Of a DNA stretch of 36,618 bases, positions 4,248 to 20,894 are shown piece by piece. Position 1 is the first letter of the stretch, and each line of letters begins with the position of its first letter. Below the pieces are notes generated by a model. The model saw only the letters and a list, made by a program, of their open reading frames with translations, was not told where the DNA came from and did no database searches. This stretch comes from Synechococcus sp. BSA11S (lineage in GTDB: Bacteria; Cyanobacteriota; Cyanobacteriia; PCC-6307; Cyanobiaceae), in contig NZ_VNWP01000019.1 in assembly GCF_014224355.1 (NCBI RefSeq), positions 1-36,618 of the forward strand, read 5' to 3'. A program made the position numbers and the translations under genes.

Positions 4248-5282
4248 TCAGACAGCCAGCATTGCCATTGAGTTGCAATGCAGGTATCGAAGAAAGTTGT
4301 AAGTCAGATTACGCAGTCCCCACCAAGCTCTAGTTCTGGCCAATCCAATCCGCCTTGTCAGCTTGCCGCGCATGCAAGTTGTGATTGCACCAAAGACGTG
4401 CTCAACCCTTGCCCGCACACTCGATCGGACCTTGTTGCGCTCCTGGGCTTCTTCGCTCAAGGGATGGCAGCGTGAGCCCTTCTCATGAATTCTGCTCTCA
4501 AAACCAGCCATGTCCAGGAGATCCTCAAACTGAGCACCTGCATAGCCAGAATCAGCCCAGACAAAGTCATCCCTATTCTCAGGGTCTAGCACCTGCGTAA
4601 GCATCTGGCTGTCGTGAATATTGGCTGGGGTAATGGCAAATCTCCGAATGAAGCCGTGAGTGGCATCAATGCAGATGCTGTTCTTGTAGCCGTAGTGGTT
4701 GACGCCATTCTTCTTGACCCAGCGAGCGTCAGTGTCCTTCTGGCGCAAGCGGTTTGGCTTGTCCAACCACTTCTCTGGAATGGCTCCATCCTTGATGGTC
4801 TTGTTCTCCTCCCTTGAGTTTCGCTGTTTGGGAACAGGTACCAGCGTGGCATCGATGATCTGCCCACCACGGGCCTCCAGGCCCTGGGACCGCAGGTGCT
4901 CCTCAAACCGTTCAAAAAGCTCATCGATGACACCCGCCTTGCGGAGCCGCTCGCGGAAGAAGGCAATAGTGGTGGCATCGGGAATGGTGTTCATCACTCC
5001 CAGTCCGACAAACTCCTCGAATGAGCGTCTGTCGTTGACCTGAAATTCCAGCTCCTCATCGCTGAGGTTGAACAGCTGCTGCAGCACCAGCATCTTGAAG
5101 AGGATGATCGGATCAATCCGCTTACGGCCAGCATTGCTCTTGCGTTCATGGCTGTAACCCTGCTCCAGCAGCGGCCTGAAGGCATCCCAGGGAATCGCCT
5201 CGGACAGGGTCGCTAACGTGGGCTTCTTTTGCTGAAGCCTGTGGATGCGCTTCTCCTCATCCCAGAATCCACGCTGTCCCAT
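4248..5282 (-). CDS. IS5-family DDE transposase
   Basis: A full-length protein of 344 residues from ATG at 5282. It begins with an IS5-type N-terminal domain (residues about 1-110: GFWDEEKRI, then KRIDPIILFKMLVLQQLFNLSD, the DUF772 region that binds the terminal repeats). The catalytic triad is visible: the first Asp in QIIDATLVPVPKQ, the second in FVWADSGYAGAQFED, and the Glu in RARVEHVFGAITTCMRGK, which also has the Y/R-type spacing of the family. The frame has no internal stop and the element has intact ends, so it is probably able to move. It faces the same way as the gene it interrupts. Confidence 0.9.
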   Translation of the reverse strand: MGQRGFWDEEKRIHRLQQKKPTLATLSEAIPWDAFRPLLEQGYSHERKSNAGRKRIDPIILFKMLVLQQLFNLSDEELEFQVNDRRSFEEFVGLGVMNTIPDATTIAFFRERLRKAGVIDELFERFEEHLRSQGLEARGGQIIDATLVPVPKQRNSREENKTIKDGAIPEKWLDKPNRLRQKDTDARWVKKNGVNHYGYKNSICIDATHGFIRRFAITPANIHDSQMLTQVLDPENRDDFVWADSGYAGAQFEDLLDMAGFESRIHEKGSRCHPLSEEAQERNKVRSSVRARVEHVFGAITTCMRGKLTRRIGLARTRAWWGLRNLTYNFLRYLHCNSMAMLAV

Positions 5283-15731: not shown

Positions 15732-16211
15732 TCAGGCTACTGCCGGCAGTTGGGGACTCACCGCCGCCGTCAGGAACGGCAAGCTTCTCAGCACCGCCAG
15801 CTGCTCAGGCAGAGGGCTGGTGCCGGGATGGGTCTGCTGCACGTAGTCCAGAGCCGCCTGCCAGCCCATCCGGCGGCTCTGAATCAACCAGGCCATCGCC
15901 ACCAGGGGCGAGCGCTCCACGCCGGCCACGCAGTGCAGATACACCGGCCCATGCCCGCGCAGCCGGCTCAGTTCCACGAGCACCAGGGAGATCTGCTCGA
16001 TCGTGGGAGCGCAGTGATGATTGTGATCCGGCAGGGGGAGCCGTACCCAGAGAAACCGCTCGGAGATGGCGCCCGGCAGGGGGGCCTCCTCGGCCGAGCA
16101 GAGGCTGATCAGTACCCTGACCCCCTCCTGCTCGAGCCGATCGAGATCCTCGTGGCTGCAGGGAGCCGTTCCCACCGCCAGTTCATCGCTCAACAGCCAG
16201 GTGATGCGCAT
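15732..16211 (-). CDS. Dual-specificity-type protein phosphatase
   Basis: A protein of 159 residues from the ATG at 16211. The active-site loop is YLHCVAGVERSPLVAMAWL, an HCx5R motif with the catalytic Cys and the phosphate-binding Arg. The early block VRVLISLCSAEEAPLPG and the Asp-containing LPLPDHNHHCAP may carry the general acid. This is the DSP/cysteine phosphatase fold, not the low-molecular-weight Wzb type usually paired with Wza/Wzc. It lies 6 bases after the wza-like gene, so it may dephosphorylate a component of the export machine. The tyrosine kinase partner is not in this window. Confidence 0.8.
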   Translation of the reverse strand: MRITWLLSDELAVGTAPCSHEDLDRLEQEGVRVLISLCSAEEAPLPGAISERFLWVRLPLPDHNHHCAPTIEQISLVLVELSRLRGHGPVYLHCVAGVERSPLVAMAWLIQSRRMGWQAALDYVQQTHPGTSPLPEQLAVLRSLPFLTAAVSPQLPAVA

Positions 16212-16217
16212 CCAGGC

Positions 16218-17342
16218 TCAGTTGTCGTTGTCGAGCAGACGGAACAGGGTCAGCACATTGACCAGCCCGGTCAGGGGCTGGCTGACCGCACCGATCGCAT
16301 CGGTGCTGATCGCATAGCGACTGCGGTTGACGATCACCGTGTCGCCATCCACCAGGGGTGGATTCTTGGCGAGCGACACCCCCTGATTGAAGTCAAGCGG
16401 GTAGGTGCGCCGCATGGCGGAGCCGTTGCGGTTGATCCGCACCAGTTCCAGCTTCGAGGTCTTGGCCCGCCAGGTCTCCACACCCCCGGCCGCAAGAATC
16501 GCCTGCATCAAGGGGGTGCTGGCCGGAACCTGCAGCCGTCCCGGCGATTTCACCTCCCCCACCACATTCACGGTGATCTCCTTGGGAGCCAGGGTGGTGG
16601 CGGCCATTTCGGCGGTGTTGGTGGCCAGCTGCTCCGACACCCGCTCCAGCTTGATCGTGTCGCCATCGAAGAGCAGCGGATTCTGCAGCTGGTCGCCGTC
16701 GCGCACCAGGGCCAGCAGATTCACCCGGGCGCGCTTGAAGCGGGAGTCGGCGCCGGGCAGACGCCGCTGCACCACCACCCGCCGCAGGTTCGACATCGCG
16801 GTGATGCCCCCCGCCTTCTGAATGGCATCCACCAACCTCGGCGACCCGCTGATCGAGATCGGCGCTTCGGCGGTGGACGATTCCGAGGTGGTGAGGGTGT
16901 AGATGCCGGGGCGCTCCACCTCACCCACCACGGCGATGCGCAGGGGCCTGGGGCGCACCACGCTCAGCTGCAGATCCGGCCGCTGCAGTTGTTTTCTGTA
17001 GAGCGATTCCAGCCAGAGGCTGGCCTGGGAGAGGGTCAGACCCGAAAGCCTGACGCTACCCAGCAAGGGCAGGGAGGCTGTGCCGTCGTTGAGAATCTCC
17101 AGGGAACTGCTGAGATCATCCACGGCCAGAAATTTCAGGCTGAGGCCATCACCGGAGCCCAGGATGTAGGCATCGTCCTGAAGCATGGGGTCGCTCGAGG
17201 CCGGATCGCCGACGGCCTGGGCGATCGCTCCCCGCTGCAGCTCCTCGGCCGCTGCGGGAGCCAGGGGGCTGGAGAGGCCGAGCAGCAGCAGCAGCGGCAT
17301 GGCCCAGCGCTTTCCCACCAGTTCCACACGCAGGCTCGTCAT
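16218..17342 (-). CDS. Polysaccharide export protein, Wza-like with SLBB domains
   Basis: A protein of 374 residues from the ATG at 17342. A signal peptide is clear: basic start, AMPLLLLLGLSSPLAPAAA, with cleavage near residue 31. There is no lipobox Cys, unlike E. coli Wza. The Poly_export domain covers about residues 55-140 (AYILGSGDGLSLKFLAVDDL, then LLGSVRLSGLTLSQASLWL). SLBB-type domains follow (RIAVVGEVERPGIYTL and TVNVVGEVKSPGRLQVP). The protein would form the periplasmic and outer-membrane channel for capsule or O-antigen export. It is the first gene of the minus-strand operon with the phosphatase, gmd and fcl. Confidence 0.88.
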   Translation of the reverse strand: MTSLRVELVGKRWAMPLLLLLGLSSPLAPAAAEELQRGAIAQAVGDPASSDPMLQDDAYILGSGDGLSLKFLAVDDLSSSLEILNDGTASLPLLGSVRLSGLTLSQASLWLESLYRKQLQRPDLQLSVVRPRPLRIAVVGEVERPGIYTLTTSESSTAEAPISISGSPRLVDAIQKAGGITAMSNLRRVVVQRRLPGADSRFKRARVNLLALVRDGDQLQNPLLFDGDTIKLERVSEQLATNTAEMAATTLAPKEITVNVVGEVKSPGRLQVPASTPLMQAILAAGGVETWRAKTSKLELVRINRNGSAMRRTYPLDFNQGVSLAKNPPLVDGDTVIVNRSRYAISTDAIGAVSQPLTGLVNVLTLFRLLDNDN

Positions 17343-17465: not shown

Positions 17466-18857
17466 GTGTCCGCCAGGCTGTCTGGATCCAGCGTCACTCC
17501 CTGGCTCAGCCTGCTCACCTCGATCGGCGTGGTGGCTGGCCCAGCAGCCCAGGCACAGTCCCTGGTCTGGGAGCTGCCCACCCCACCCCCTCCGGTGGTG
17601 GTCGTCCCCAGGCAACCGCCACCGCCGGTGCCCAGCCTGCGGGCCCAGGCGCCTGAACCTGCTCCTGCTCCTGCGTCTGCTCCCCGGCCAGGAACCCTCA
17701 CCTGGGAAGCGGTTCCGCCCAACCCGCCAGCCCTGCAGCCGCCGCCGCCCCTGCCCAGCGCTCCAGCAGCGGCCATCGCGGCCAGGCCCGAGCGAGGTCT
17801 CACCTGGGAACTGGTTCCCTTCAATGACGGCAACCTGGCCTTCACGCCTCCTGCCCCACAAGCCAATCCTGAAGCCGGCGTGTTCGGCCAGATGCTGGCC
17901 CGGGAAACCACCCTGCGCTGGTACCTGGTGCCTGAGGATCAGATCCTCGATGCCTCGGTGGCCCTGGCCAGCGGCGATCCCAGGCCCGAACCTCCCTACC
18001 TTCCCGAGCAGCCCCCGCCGATCTGGCCCAAGGTGCGTGGCCTGGCCCGGGGCATCACCGTCAACGGCAACCCCTACCCCGACACGGGTCTGAACGTTCC
18101 CAACGGCTTCGCCCAGGACAAGGAATTCACCGTCTCCACCACCCTCACCGGCACCAGCCGCACCCGCTCCTGCCGGGTGCCCGACGGCGGTAACTGGGTC
18201 GACTGCGCCGACTCCGAGGCCTACCTCGACATCACGCCCTTCAAGGGGGAGTACGCCAGCCTCGGCTTCCAATACACCATTCAGAGTCTGACCAGCCGCA
18301 ACCGAGGCACCGGCCAGTTCGCCGGCCAGAGCATCGGCTTCCGCACGGCCATCAACCTCACCCCCACCACGGGGCTGGCCTTCGGTGGTGAACACATCAT
18401 CCAGCTCGACGACACCACCGACCTGGGCCGCAACTTCTACCTGGTGATGTCCCAGGCCTTTCCCCTCAGCCGCGGTGAGAGTCCGATCCTGCTCGTGGCC
18501 ACCGCCGGCATCGGCTCCGACTTCTACGGCTACGCCGGCAACGGCACCCTGGGATCCACCAACTGCCTGAGCGGCAACAACGTCAGCAGCCTCAACTACC
18601 CCCAGGGCACCGACTGCTTCTGGGGACCGATCGGCGCCCTCAGCCTGCACCTGGGCAGCCAGGTGTCGATCGGCTACGAGTGGTTCGGATTCGGCATCGG
18701 CGCCGGCCTCTCCGTGCGTCCGGTCAAGAACATTCCTCTCACCTTTTCCCTCTACGCCACTGACTTCCTCGGCAACACCCCCAGCTATATCGAAGGGCTC
18801 TGCACCACCGATCCCTGCGAACCCCGTTACTACGGCAGGCTGACCATGTCGTTCTGA
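17466..18857 (+). CDS. Probable outer-membrane protein with proline-rich repeats
   Basis: A protein of 463 residues; the start is a GTG at 17466, chosen because no ATG precedes the signal peptide. Residues about 1-30 look like a signal peptide ending AAQAQ. Residues 30-170 are rich in Pro and Ala and hold four copies of a short motif: LVWELPTP, LTWEAVPP, LTWELVPF and LRWYLVPE. Residues about 190-463 look like a beta-barrel: short alternating strands, many Gly/Asn/Thr, and a final Phe (YYGRLTMSF), the usual barrel-assembly signal. Four Cys lie in the barrel part in two close pairs (SCRVPDGGNWVDC and CTTDPC), with two more between them. I do not recognise a named family. It diverges from the wza-like operon. 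Confidence 0.75.
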   Translation: MSARLSGSSVTPWLSLLTSIGVVAGPAAQAQSLVWELPTPPPPVVVVPRQPPPPVPSLRAQAPEPAPAPASAPRPGTLTWEAVPPNPPALQPPPPLPSAPAAAIAARPERGLTWELVPFNDGNLAFTPPAPQANPEAGVFGQMLARETTLRWYLVPEDQILDASVALASGDPRPEPPYLPEQPPPIWPKVRGLARGITVNGNPYPDTGLNVPNGFAQDKEFTVSTTLTGTSRTRSCRVPDGGNWVDCADSEAYLDITPFKGEYASLGFQYTIQSLTSRNRGTGQFAGQSIGFRTAINLTPTTGLAFGGEHIIQLDDTTDLGRNFYLVMSQAFPLSRGESPILLVATAGIGSDFYGYAGNGTLGSTNCLSGNNVSSLNYPQGTDCFWGPIGALSLHLGSQVSIGYEWFGFGIGAGLSVRPVKNIPLTFSLYATDFLGNTPSYIEGLCTTDPCEPRYYGRLTMSF

Positions 18858-18996: not shown

Positions 18997-19668
18997 ATGC
19001 GTTTCACCGTTCCTCTGGCTCTGGCCACGGCCACGGCATTCTCCGTCAGCGCTCTGCCCGTTCGGGCTTTCCCCGGAGCCAGTGTCAACCTCGTGCGCGT
19101 CAACGGTGATGGCGTCACCGCCCTGCCAGGTCTTCAGCCCCCTGCAGTCCAGGTGCCCCCCTCGGCGCCGGGAACGGTCGAACTGATCAGCCAGGCTTCG
19201 GGTGACAGCCAGACGGACTCCGACGTCAGCACCCTGCTCACCGGCACCGAAGACCTCGAAATCAAGTACCAGAGCCCCCTGCCTCGGTTCGGAGAGGGTG
19301 ATTACATCTCGGTTCGCAACAAATCCACCGGTGAAGAGGTGGAGCGCATCTTCCTCAACTCCGATCGGGTCAGCTACTCCAGCGACCGCCGCACCATCAC
19401 GATCGATCCGGAAACCACCATCACCGATGGTGAGGTGATCTGTGCCCTTCTTCCTGATGGGCCCAACACCCTGCCCACCCGCACCACCCCCTGTTGCTTC
19501 ACCGTGGCCAAAGCAGCCGCCTATGTGGAGCCGGCCGGTAGTCCTTTCCCCTGGTGGATCATTCCCGTGGGCCTTGGTCTTGGCGTCGGCATCTGTGCCA
19601 TCGCAGGCTGCTTTGACGGTGGCGGCGGTGGTGGCGGTGGCGGTGGCGACAATCCCGTGTCCCGCTGA
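18997..19668 (+). CDS. Exported protein with hydrophobic C-terminal segment, tandem paralogue 1
   Basis: A protein of 223 residues from the ATG at 18997. It has a signal peptide (MRFTVPLALATATAFSVSA) and the block FPGASVNLVRVNGDGV. A middle domain with beta character follows (LEIKYQSPLPRFGEGDYISV, EVICALLPDGP, TPCCFTVAKAAA). Near the end is a single membrane-like stretch (PFPWWIIPVGLGLGVGICAI), then GCF, a run of glycines and DNPVSR. Five cysteines are shared with the neighbour at 19821. I do not recognise the family; the Gly run and short basic end recall sorting signals, but no known motif matches. A rho-independent terminator follows directly. Confidence 0.75.
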   Translation: MRFTVPLALATATAFSVSALPVRAFPGASVNLVRVNGDGVTALPGLQPPAVQVPPSAPGTVELISQASGDSQTDSDVSTLLTGTEDLEIKYQSPLPRFGEGDYISVRNKSTGEEVERIFLNSDRVSYSSDRRTITIDPETTITDGEVICALLPDGPNTLPTRTTPCCFTVAKAAAYVEPAGSPFPWWIIPVGLGLGVGICAIAGCFDGGGGGGGGGGDNPVSR

Positions 19669-19695
19669 TCCTTCCCCTGGGCTGAGGCCCATGGA

Positions 19696-19735
19696 CCCCT
19701 GAGTCGAGCCCGTCAGGCTCAGCTCAGGGGTTTTT
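19696..19735 (+). terminator. Rho-independent terminator
   Basis: CCCCTGAG at 19696-19703 pairs with CTCAGGGG at 19723-19730, followed by TTTTT. It ends the transcript of the first paralogue, so the second is probably transcribed from its own promoter. Confidence 0.8.
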
Positions 19736-19820
19736 CTGAAAGTGTGTCTTGATCATCACTGCCAGATCGTCCAGCAGCACACATAATGTCCGGGTGATTT
19801 CTTGCATTGGGATGCCGTGC

Positions 19821-20531
19821 ATGCGCTCAGCTTTGTCTCTGGCTGTTCTCTCCGCTTTCACGGTCAGCACCCTGCCTGTTCGGGCCTTTCCCGGCGCCTC
19901 CGTCAATCTGGTGCGGGTGAATGGCGATGGAGTCACCGCCATTCCCGGGCTTCAGCGCACGCCCACCACAGCGGCGCCTCCATCCCTGGCCAGTGACAGT
20001 CAGCTGCTCAGCCAGGCCGAGCTGAGCGATCAGGAGTCGAGGGATGTCACCTATCTCCTCTCCGGCGACGAGGACTTCGAGATCCGCTACGCCAGTCCCC
20101 TGCCCCTCGACCTCACCGGCAACATTTCCATCCGCCGGCGCAGCGCCAATTCAGGTGATGGCGCCAACGGCGAGGAAGTGGAGTCCATCCCCCTGAATTC
20201 TCCCAACGTCACGATTTCCGAGGATCGTCTCACCCTCACGATCAAACACGACCGCGAACTGCGCGACGGTGAGACACTCTGTGCCCTGTTGCCCGATGGG
20301 CCCGCTGCTCTGCCCCAACGCCTGACGCCCTGCTGCTTCCAATTGGCCAAGGCGGCCACCAGCATGGCCAGAAAAACCACTCCCTGCGGCTTGATTCCGC
20401 CTGCCGCCAACAACCCCTTCCCCTGGTGGGTGATCCCTGTGGGCCTCGGTCTGGGCGTCGGCATCTGTGCGGCGGCTGGCTGCTTCAGCGGCGGCGGTGG
20501 TGGTGGCGGCAGCAACAACGTCTCCCGTTGA
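19821..20531 (+). CDS. Exported protein with hydrophobic C-terminal segment, tandem paralogue 2
   Basis: A protein of 236 residues from the ATG at 19821; an ATG three codons earlier is also possible. The layout equals the previous gene: signal peptide (LSLAVLSAFTVSTLPVRA), FPGASVNLVRVNGDGV, a beta-type middle (FEIRYASPLPLDLTGNISI, ETLCALLPDGP, LTPCCFQLAKAA), then PFPWWVIPVGLGLGVGICAA, GCF, a Gly run and SNNVSR. The N- and C-terminal blocks are nearly identical to paralogue 1 while the middle has diverged, and this copy has an insert with an extra Cys (ARKTTPCGLIPPAANN). A tandem duplication is clear. Function unknown. Confidence 0.75.
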   Translation: MRSALSLAVLSAFTVSTLPVRAFPGASVNLVRVNGDGVTAIPGLQRTPTTAAPPSLASDSQLLSQAELSDQESRDVTYLLSGDEDFEIRYASPLPLDLTGNISIRRRSANSGDGANGEEVESIPLNSPNVTISEDRLTLTIKHDRELRDGETLCALLPDGPAALPQRLTPCCFQLAKAATSMARKTTPCGLIPPAANNPFPWWVIPVGLGLGVGICAAAGCFSGGGGGGGSNNVSR

Positions 20532-20636: not shown

Positions 20637-20894
20637 ATGGTCAGGTTTCTCACCACCGGTGCACTGGCATTCGGCACCCTGGCAACCCCAGCCTTCGCCG
20701 CCGATCTTGCCGACCTGCCCACCTGCCTGAAGCCCCGCACCCTCAGCGCCGTCACGGCCACGATCACCCAGGCCAGCGTGATCAAGGATCCCCTCGTGGC
20801 CCAGGGATTCAGAACCTCCGACCCCGCCTGCACCTACCAGGTGGCACGCCCCGCACCCGTGTTCGAGGAAGTTCCCGTCCGCGGTCTCTGGTGA
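20637..20894 (+). CDS. Small secreted protein of unknown function
   Basis: A protein of 85 residues from the ATG at 20637. A signal peptide is evident: MVRFLTTGALAFGTLATPA followed by FAA, cleavage near residue 22. The mature part is about 60 residues with two Cys (LPTCLKPRT and DPACTYQVA), which could form one disulfide. It ends EVPVRGLW. I recognise no family. It lies 105 bases after the tandem exported paralogues and 62 bases before cysS, on the same strand, so it may belong to the same group of exported proteins. Confidence 0.65.
   Translation: MVRFLTTGALAFGTLATPAFAADLADLPTCLKPRTLSAVTATITQASVIKDPLVAQGFRTSDPACTYQVARPAPVFEEVPVRGLW

Follow-up and report, generated by a model that had tools for sequence, protein, structure and literature searches.

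The window analyzed here, a 36,618-nucleotide contig (G000:C11) of the 2.88 Mb genome of Synechococcus sp. BSA11S (G000, the window's own genome), encodes two adjacent exported proteins, A and B, which share a Trp-rich hydrophobic segment and a glycine-rich tail at their C-termini. The initial annotation likened this C-terminus to a sorting or anchoring signal and raised the prospect of a fixed processing enzyme, so that the locus poses two linked questions, viz., whether the segment is a sorting signal or a membrane anchor, and what A and B do together with the genes that surround them (Table 1). The left half of the window contains genes for a GDP-mannose dehydratase, an epimerase, an ABC-exporter and glycosyltransferase-like proteins. 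A DDE transposase gene (window 4248-5282, minus strand) lies beside the polysaccharide genes.

Table 1. Features of the A/B locus, in window coordinates.
Feature	Position	Strand	Length or basis
Dual-specificity phosphatase-like gene adjoining the OPX gene	15732..16211	-	
Wza-type polysaccharide export (OPX) protein, divergent from the barrel gene	16218..17342	-	Poly_export + SLBB; Wza structures, E 3.5e-9
Barrel-like, putative outer-membrane protein ending in MSF; undescribed family, proposed partner of A/B	17466..18857	+	463 aa
Gene A: signal peptide, conserved block, linker, Ig-like domain, hydrophobic segment, Gly tail ending in NPVSR	18997..19668	+	223 aa
A, conserved block directly after the signal peptide (residues 25-46)	19069..19134	+	
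A, predicted Ig-like (SbsA/Big_5-type) domain (residues about 77-170)	19225..19506	+	AF2, Foldseek, profile match to a Big_5 domain
A, C-terminal hydrophobic segment PFPWW...GCF (residues 183-206)	19543..19614	+	
A, Gly-rich tail ending in S-R	19615..19665	+	
Terminator-like hairpin between A and B	19693..19733	+	folding
Gene B, paralogue of A, ending in NNVSR	19821..20531	+	236 aa
B, C-terminal hydrophobic segment (residues 199-222)	20415..20486	+	
Small secreted protein with a Cys pair, ending in PVRGLW-COOH	20637..20894	+	85 aa
Codons of the C-terminal VRGLW of the small protein	20877..20891	+	

The description of A and B as tandem paralogues is confirmed by their alignment (57% identity over 219 aligned positions, E = 4e-79). 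As read from the sequence, each starts with a hydrophobic, signal-like N-terminus ending in VRA, an end to which the -3/-1 rule for signal peptide cleavage applies. The two proteins are identical at 21 of 22 positions in the block following the signal, 22 of 24 in the hydrophobic segment and 11 of 14 in the tail, versus 12 of 34 in the linker and 43 of 79 in the Ig region, so the near-identical ends and diverged middle that had been noticed at the outset are borne out region by region. Identical residues are specified by different codons at 12 of 21 sites in the block and 8 of 22 in the hydrophobic segment, which indicates that the likeness is kept at the protein level by selection rather than reflecting a fresh duplication, and likewise disfavors recent gene conversion as its source. 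In two of the six genomes with a tandem pair (G002 and G006; L033, L035) the hydrophobic segment of B differs, whereas that of B in the other four is of the A type; given these odd segments, an older exchange between A and B is possible. The strong terminator-like hairpin reported between the two genes is supported by folding (-30.3 kcal/mol, z = -5.1), and a T run comes after it; it is absent from the list of a consensus terminator scanner, probably because that scanner allows loops of 3-8 only.

Searches with A as query matched 12 of 149 genomes, G000 included, and those with B matched 22 of 201, of which 18 were counted as confident (E = 6.7e-7 or better) and four (G016, G066, G174, G251) were set aside as weak. 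The tandem pair occurs in six genomes of the window's genus (G000, G001, G002, G003, G005, G006) and a single copy in two more (G007, G008); G004, a one-contig genome of the same genus, had neither A/B nor the barrel-like protein in these searches. Named records with a relative of A include Synechococcus sp. Cruz-7E5, 1G10, WH 5701, RedBA-s, J7-Johnson and CS-1329, as well as a Cyanobium MAG; in WH 5701 (L034) the gene set is complete. Across 386 genomes of the phylum, a family profile recovered full-length relatives only in G000, G038 and G069, along with short matches to the Ig region in three long ORFs (G159, G398, G520). As to a phage origin of A, tblastn gave no match in 50,697 phage records. 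The 14 aligned relatives, with identities down to about 30%, all retain the post-signal block, the Ig-like middle, the hydrophobic segment and the Gly-rich tail.

The diverged middle is predicted to adopt an Ig fold of the Big_5/SbsA type. The AF2 model of A shows a beta-sandwich in this region (block means mostly 70-86) and nothing confident outside it (mean over A, 53.6). In Foldseek, Ig-like domains of an S-layer protein rank first (E = 4.2e-4, prob 1.00) and CopC comes lower, and the same S-layer Ig domains are the best, albeit weak, matches of the A/B profile among PDB sequences (E = 0.19). Pfam Big_5 itself is matched by one of 14 family members (E = 0.0015), which is neither A nor B; in the reverse direction, the short match of the family profile in G520 falls on a Pfam Big_5 domain (E = 4.8e-21) within a 1,358-aa frame.

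The closest associate of A and B is the barrel-like protein, found in 35 of 201 family genomes: it is present in all 18 genomes with a confident B relative versus 17 of the 183 others (Fisher p = 2e-16, kinship not corrected for). Its gene lies directly upstream of A/B in 15 of 17 compared loci, the two exceptions being G223 and G069, where it is located elsewhere in the genome, unlinked to A. Three additional genomes (G040, G074, G081) combine a barrel-like protein with an exported protein of the A/B C-terminal layout that the B search had missed; the latter follows the barrel gene in G040 and G074 and lies at a contig end in G081. Because the tails from G040 and G074 were part of a second tail profile (A5), its matches in these two genomes are circular, whereas that in G081 (E = 9.8e-5) is not. 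Of the other 14 genomes with a barrel-family gene, ten (all but G075, G082, G086 and G215) were inspected and had no tail protein in the stretch examined. All 20 members in a 20-row alignment of the barrel-like family lack a Pfam match at E = 0.1, and the window's protein has no convincing match among PDB sequences (best E = 0.038, to a designed protein). Its predicted structure (pLDDT 27.5) was not used, so the label "barrel" derives from the look of the sequence. The Pro-rich N-terminal part carries LxWExVP-like repeats, and similar WEPV(P) repeats are seen in distant members (L128-L130). The barrel-like protein, A, B and the small protein all stay below the curated cut-offs of Pfam and NCBIfam. 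The initial annotation had singled these genes out as the best candidate in the window for an undescribed envelope system; this view is partly supported, the gene set being conserved across several genera and outside any curated family, whereas the idea that the A/B segment is a sorting signal is not supported, as detailed below.

The OPX gene is near A/B in 12 of 17 compared loci and the phosphatase gene in nine of 17; no OPX gene occurs in the stretch taken at the remaining five (L047, L048, L049, L051, L054). The OPX protein has both Poly_export and SLBB domains and matches Wza structures, the best Wza alignment ending at residue 231 of 374, which bears on Wza_C, the C-terminal outer-membrane helix that is a feature of OPX class 1. 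Given the proximity of the OPX and phosphatase genes, and with the genes named above for the window's left half also in favor, export of a surface polysaccharide is the best guess for the role of the system.

Based on the above, we propose that A and B are periplasmic Ig proteins that are anchored in the inner membrane, belong to a polysaccharide-export locus and serve the barrel-like protein, a reading for which we regard the chances as evenly balanced. The signal peptide would be cut after VRA, placing the conserved block and one SbsA/Big_5-type Ig domain in the periplasm; the C-terminal hydrophobic segment would act as a stop-transfer sequence and inner-membrane anchor; and the tail, which is short, Gly-rich and ends in S-[RQN], would remain in the cytoplasm or at the membrane face. 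Thus positioned, A and B would serve the dedicated outer-membrane barrel-like protein, whose gene lies just upstream and next to that of the Wza-type exporter; most likely they would form a bridge, or act as an assembly factor, between the inner membrane and an outer-membrane export complex for surface polysaccharide. While the conservation, co-occurrence and gene order of the set are direct observations, we infer the topology, the role in polysaccharide export and the contact with the barrel-like protein. The barrel-like protein, the Ig-domain anchor proteins and the small protein with its candidate tag constitute an undescribed, conserved envelope gene set at a picocyanobacterial polysaccharide-export locus.

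How the C-terminus itself is to be read was addressed with profile and layout searches. When a profile of the A/B C-terminal segment was run against eight genomes, A (E = 3.5e-18) and B (1.4e-16) were its sole clear matches in G000, the next standing at 0.99, and seven weak matches were judged on reading to be wrong frames or integral membrane proteins. The full layout combines a hydrophobic segment with a Gly/Ser/Asn-rich tail that ends in [ST][RQN]. None of the 7,247 ORFs (six frames, at least 60 aa) in 800 kb (28%) of the own genome shows it, and the four with a looser layout there lack the [ST][RQN] end; a 50-kb E. coli control likewise gave none in 316 ORFs. Around relatives of the locus, the same scan gave 15 matches in 2,786 ORFs, of which 13 are members of the A/B family or their positional counterparts and two were judged spurious, being frames that run opposite to the gene of the barrel-like protein. 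A genome-wide sorting signal on A/B is accordingly rejected: the profile search suggested earlier for other exported proteins bearing the segment returned only these relatives, as far as the eight genomes and the 28% sample reach. Judged from these comparisons, the segment is best read as a family-specific anchor.

It is rather unlikely that the segment is just an ordinary membrane anchor, with the Gly run and the terminal S-R arising by low-complexity drift without a role. Its restriction to the A/B family and the variable length of the Gly run among relatives would fit such drift; however, an S-[RQN] end is kept in 13 of 14 aligned relatives (the exception being G245) despite the variable tail before it, and the layout turns up again in the proteins of G040, G074 and G081, although the full-length profile hardly reaches the first (E = 0.015) and misses the others.

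We consider it improbable that A and B act like E. coli GfcA and YjbE, small exported proteins of capsule and exopolysaccharide operons. GfcA and YjbE of E. coli K-12 have a signal-like start, a hydrophobic stretch and a Gly/Ser/Thr tail (ending in STTR and TSTQ, respectively), features that recur in A and B, which are likewise exported and encoded beside barrel or OPX genes. The gene complements also resemble each other, in that gfc encodes GfcD, the export lipoprotein GfcE and a phosphatase and yjb encodes YjbH, while the window has the barrel-like, OPX and phosphatase genes. For GfcA, the authors of PMC8592465 suggest a possible O-antigen modification and direction to the barrel GfcD. Against a shared mode of action, A and B contain an Ig domain that is absent from the short GfcA and YjbE, the layout scan is passed by GfcA but not by YjbE even at a relaxed threshold, and the comparison involves two E. 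coli proteins only. Homology to YjbE is rejected by model searches both ways, the YjbE family scoring nothing at A/B and A/B matching no YjbE model; for GfcA, neither Pfam nor NCBIfam offers a model over cut-off with which homology could be assessed. Relatives of GfcA and YjbE were not found on plasmids. The parallel is thus one of layout only.

That the Gly-rich segment instead contributes to an export pore, by insertion in the outer membrane or by glycine-zipper-like self-assembly, is very improbable: most copies in the window's genus have an alternating GLGLGVG, but other clades have plainer Val/Ala/Leu/Ile segments. Least credible, to the point of being nearly dismissible, is a sorting signal cut by a dedicated intramembrane protease, as, despite the signal peptide and the C-terminal hydrophobic segment, the segment is absent from other proteins in the above searches, no NCBIfam model matches over cut-off, and the tails of the relatives have the Gly run on the wrong side, after the hydrophobic segment, with scattered Arg (none to three) but no basic cluster. 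The initial suggestion of a sorting signal with a fixed processing enzyme is hence not supported, and the anchor reading is retained.

The sorting-signal idea finds a strong candidate not on A or B but on the small neighboring protein, whose RGLW end is the most interesting point of the locus, for many unrelated exported proteins share it, some of them from well-known domain families. Downstream of A/B, a small protein with this end is present in 13 of 18 loci, counting the window and 17 others; G223 is one of the 13. At the loci where tblastn with the window's small protein matched (L032-L038, L046, L047, L049), 10 of 10 end in RGLW; this sample is the freest for judging the constancy of the motif, yet its query contains the RGLW end. 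Inside the chain of two A-like proteins, L122 (G040) and L142 (G081), PPVRGLW is present.

A DNA pattern for [VI]-[RS]-G-[LF]-W-stop had 66 matches in 16 genomes (0 to 11 per genome), versus eight (0 to 2 per genome) for the reversed pattern, the counts in G040 and G076 being scarcely different from the control (2 vs 2 and 3 vs 2). With a stricter pattern, 58 genomes of the window's family (f1) gave 64 matches versus 14 reversed, 36 of these genomes, including every sampled g18 and g39 genome, being without a match, while genera such as g1, g6 and g10 are rich in the motif; 328 other genomes of the phylum gave 42 versus 25, not far above background. The last codon of both patterns admits TGG too, and the first pattern admits VRGFW. 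When 39 of the 42 matches outside the family were read in the DNA, 20 ended an ORF of 60 aa or more, and the remaining sites were mostly short frames or not stops. A VRGFW short frame (G000:C35:5226, with repeated sites in G089) lies in near-identical DNA that looks like a mobile element.

Reading a part of the pattern matches yielded 74 different ORFs, each at least 60 aa long, that end in [VI]RGLW-COOH; since the pattern is what selected them, an invariant motif among them is no evidence. BLAST with the last 12 residues removed separates them into 20 groups, or about 17, because L211 and L220 belong by position to the small-protein family (49-locus, G245) and L286 is a DUF1400 protein by Pfam. 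A signal-like N-terminus is seen in 65 of the 74, versus 180 of 624 control ORFs, by a crude rule that misses the window's own small protein, and L234 has a lipoprotein-like start. Among 19 different RGLW proteins scanned with Pfam are DUF1400 hydrolases, META, Fasciclin and PG_binding_1 proteins and, just below cut-off, an Opacity/Surface_Ag_2-like barrel; the others had no match over cut-off. G000 alone has five such sites, found in two exported proteins (C1:56345, C38:42122), a DUF1400 protein (C5:26829), the small protein (C11:20877) and an Opacity-like barrel (C15:16052). In an unselected 837-kb own sample, RGLW ends two of 5,292 ORFs and every other permutation none or one, numbers too few for a test alone. 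A cause at the DNA level is not favored, because different sites use different codons for V/I, R, G and L and different stop codons. No NCBIfam model reached cut-off for ten RGLW proteins, the window's included. In the full-text literature collection searched, no paper joins RGLW with "cyanobacteri", and among the matches listed none of the papers mentioning RGLW is on cyanobacteria by title.

In the wide sense of a C-terminal motif shared by unrelated exported proteins, RGLW thus qualifies as a candidate sorting signal. We propose, in the belief that it could equally well prove right or wrong, that [VI]RGLW-COOH is a hitherto undescribed tag with which cyanobacterial envelope proteins end and which one fixed periplasmic receptor reads. 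A flexible linker, often rich in Pro/Ala, would carry the tag at its tip, and the receptor, e.g., a PDZ-type protease, a chaperone or a tether, would decide the retention, placement or turnover of its bearers. That a peptide ending in Trp lies accessible at the C-terminus of proteins whose domains assign them to different envelope locations suggests a periplasmic reader, and analogy to DegS, which recognizes the C-termini of outer-membrane proteins, suggests a PDZ-type protease or chaperone as the candidate. If a single factor does read RGLW, the motif would serve the cyanobacterial envelope as a code for sorting or quality control, and the barrel-like, A/B and small proteins would link surface-polysaccharide export to this tagging system.

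Comparisons with known systems place the locus as follows. With OPX/beta-barrel export systems (PMC9601211, PMC9603273) it has in common an OPX gene beside that of an outer-membrane barrel-like protein, and it differs in that its barrel-like protein falls outside Pfam families and convincing PDB sequence matches; the word stem "cyanobacteri" is absent from the main text of both papers. With the gfcABCDE-etp-etk (group 4 capsule) and yjbEFGH operons (PMC8592465) it shares a small exported protein and an outer-membrane barrel and, with gfc, also an OPX protein and a phosphatase; in contrast, no sequence relation was found, A and B have an Ig domain, and the window's phosphatase is of the dual-specificity kind. 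LPXTG, PEP-CTERM and GlyGly-CTERM are defined (PMC3237569) by a motif followed by a transmembrane helix and then a basic cluster; A/B and RGLW share with them the C-terminal position and the occurrence on exported proteins, but A/B have Gly after the hydrophobic segment, lack the basic cluster and are confined to one family, whereas RGLW spans many families, but is without both the transmembrane helix and the basic cluster. Finally, the middle domain of A/B is predicted to have the same fold as Big_5 and SbsA-type Ig domains, and while the Big_5 example recovered here is embedded in a 1,358-aa frame, A and B each carry a single such domain on a C-terminal anchor.
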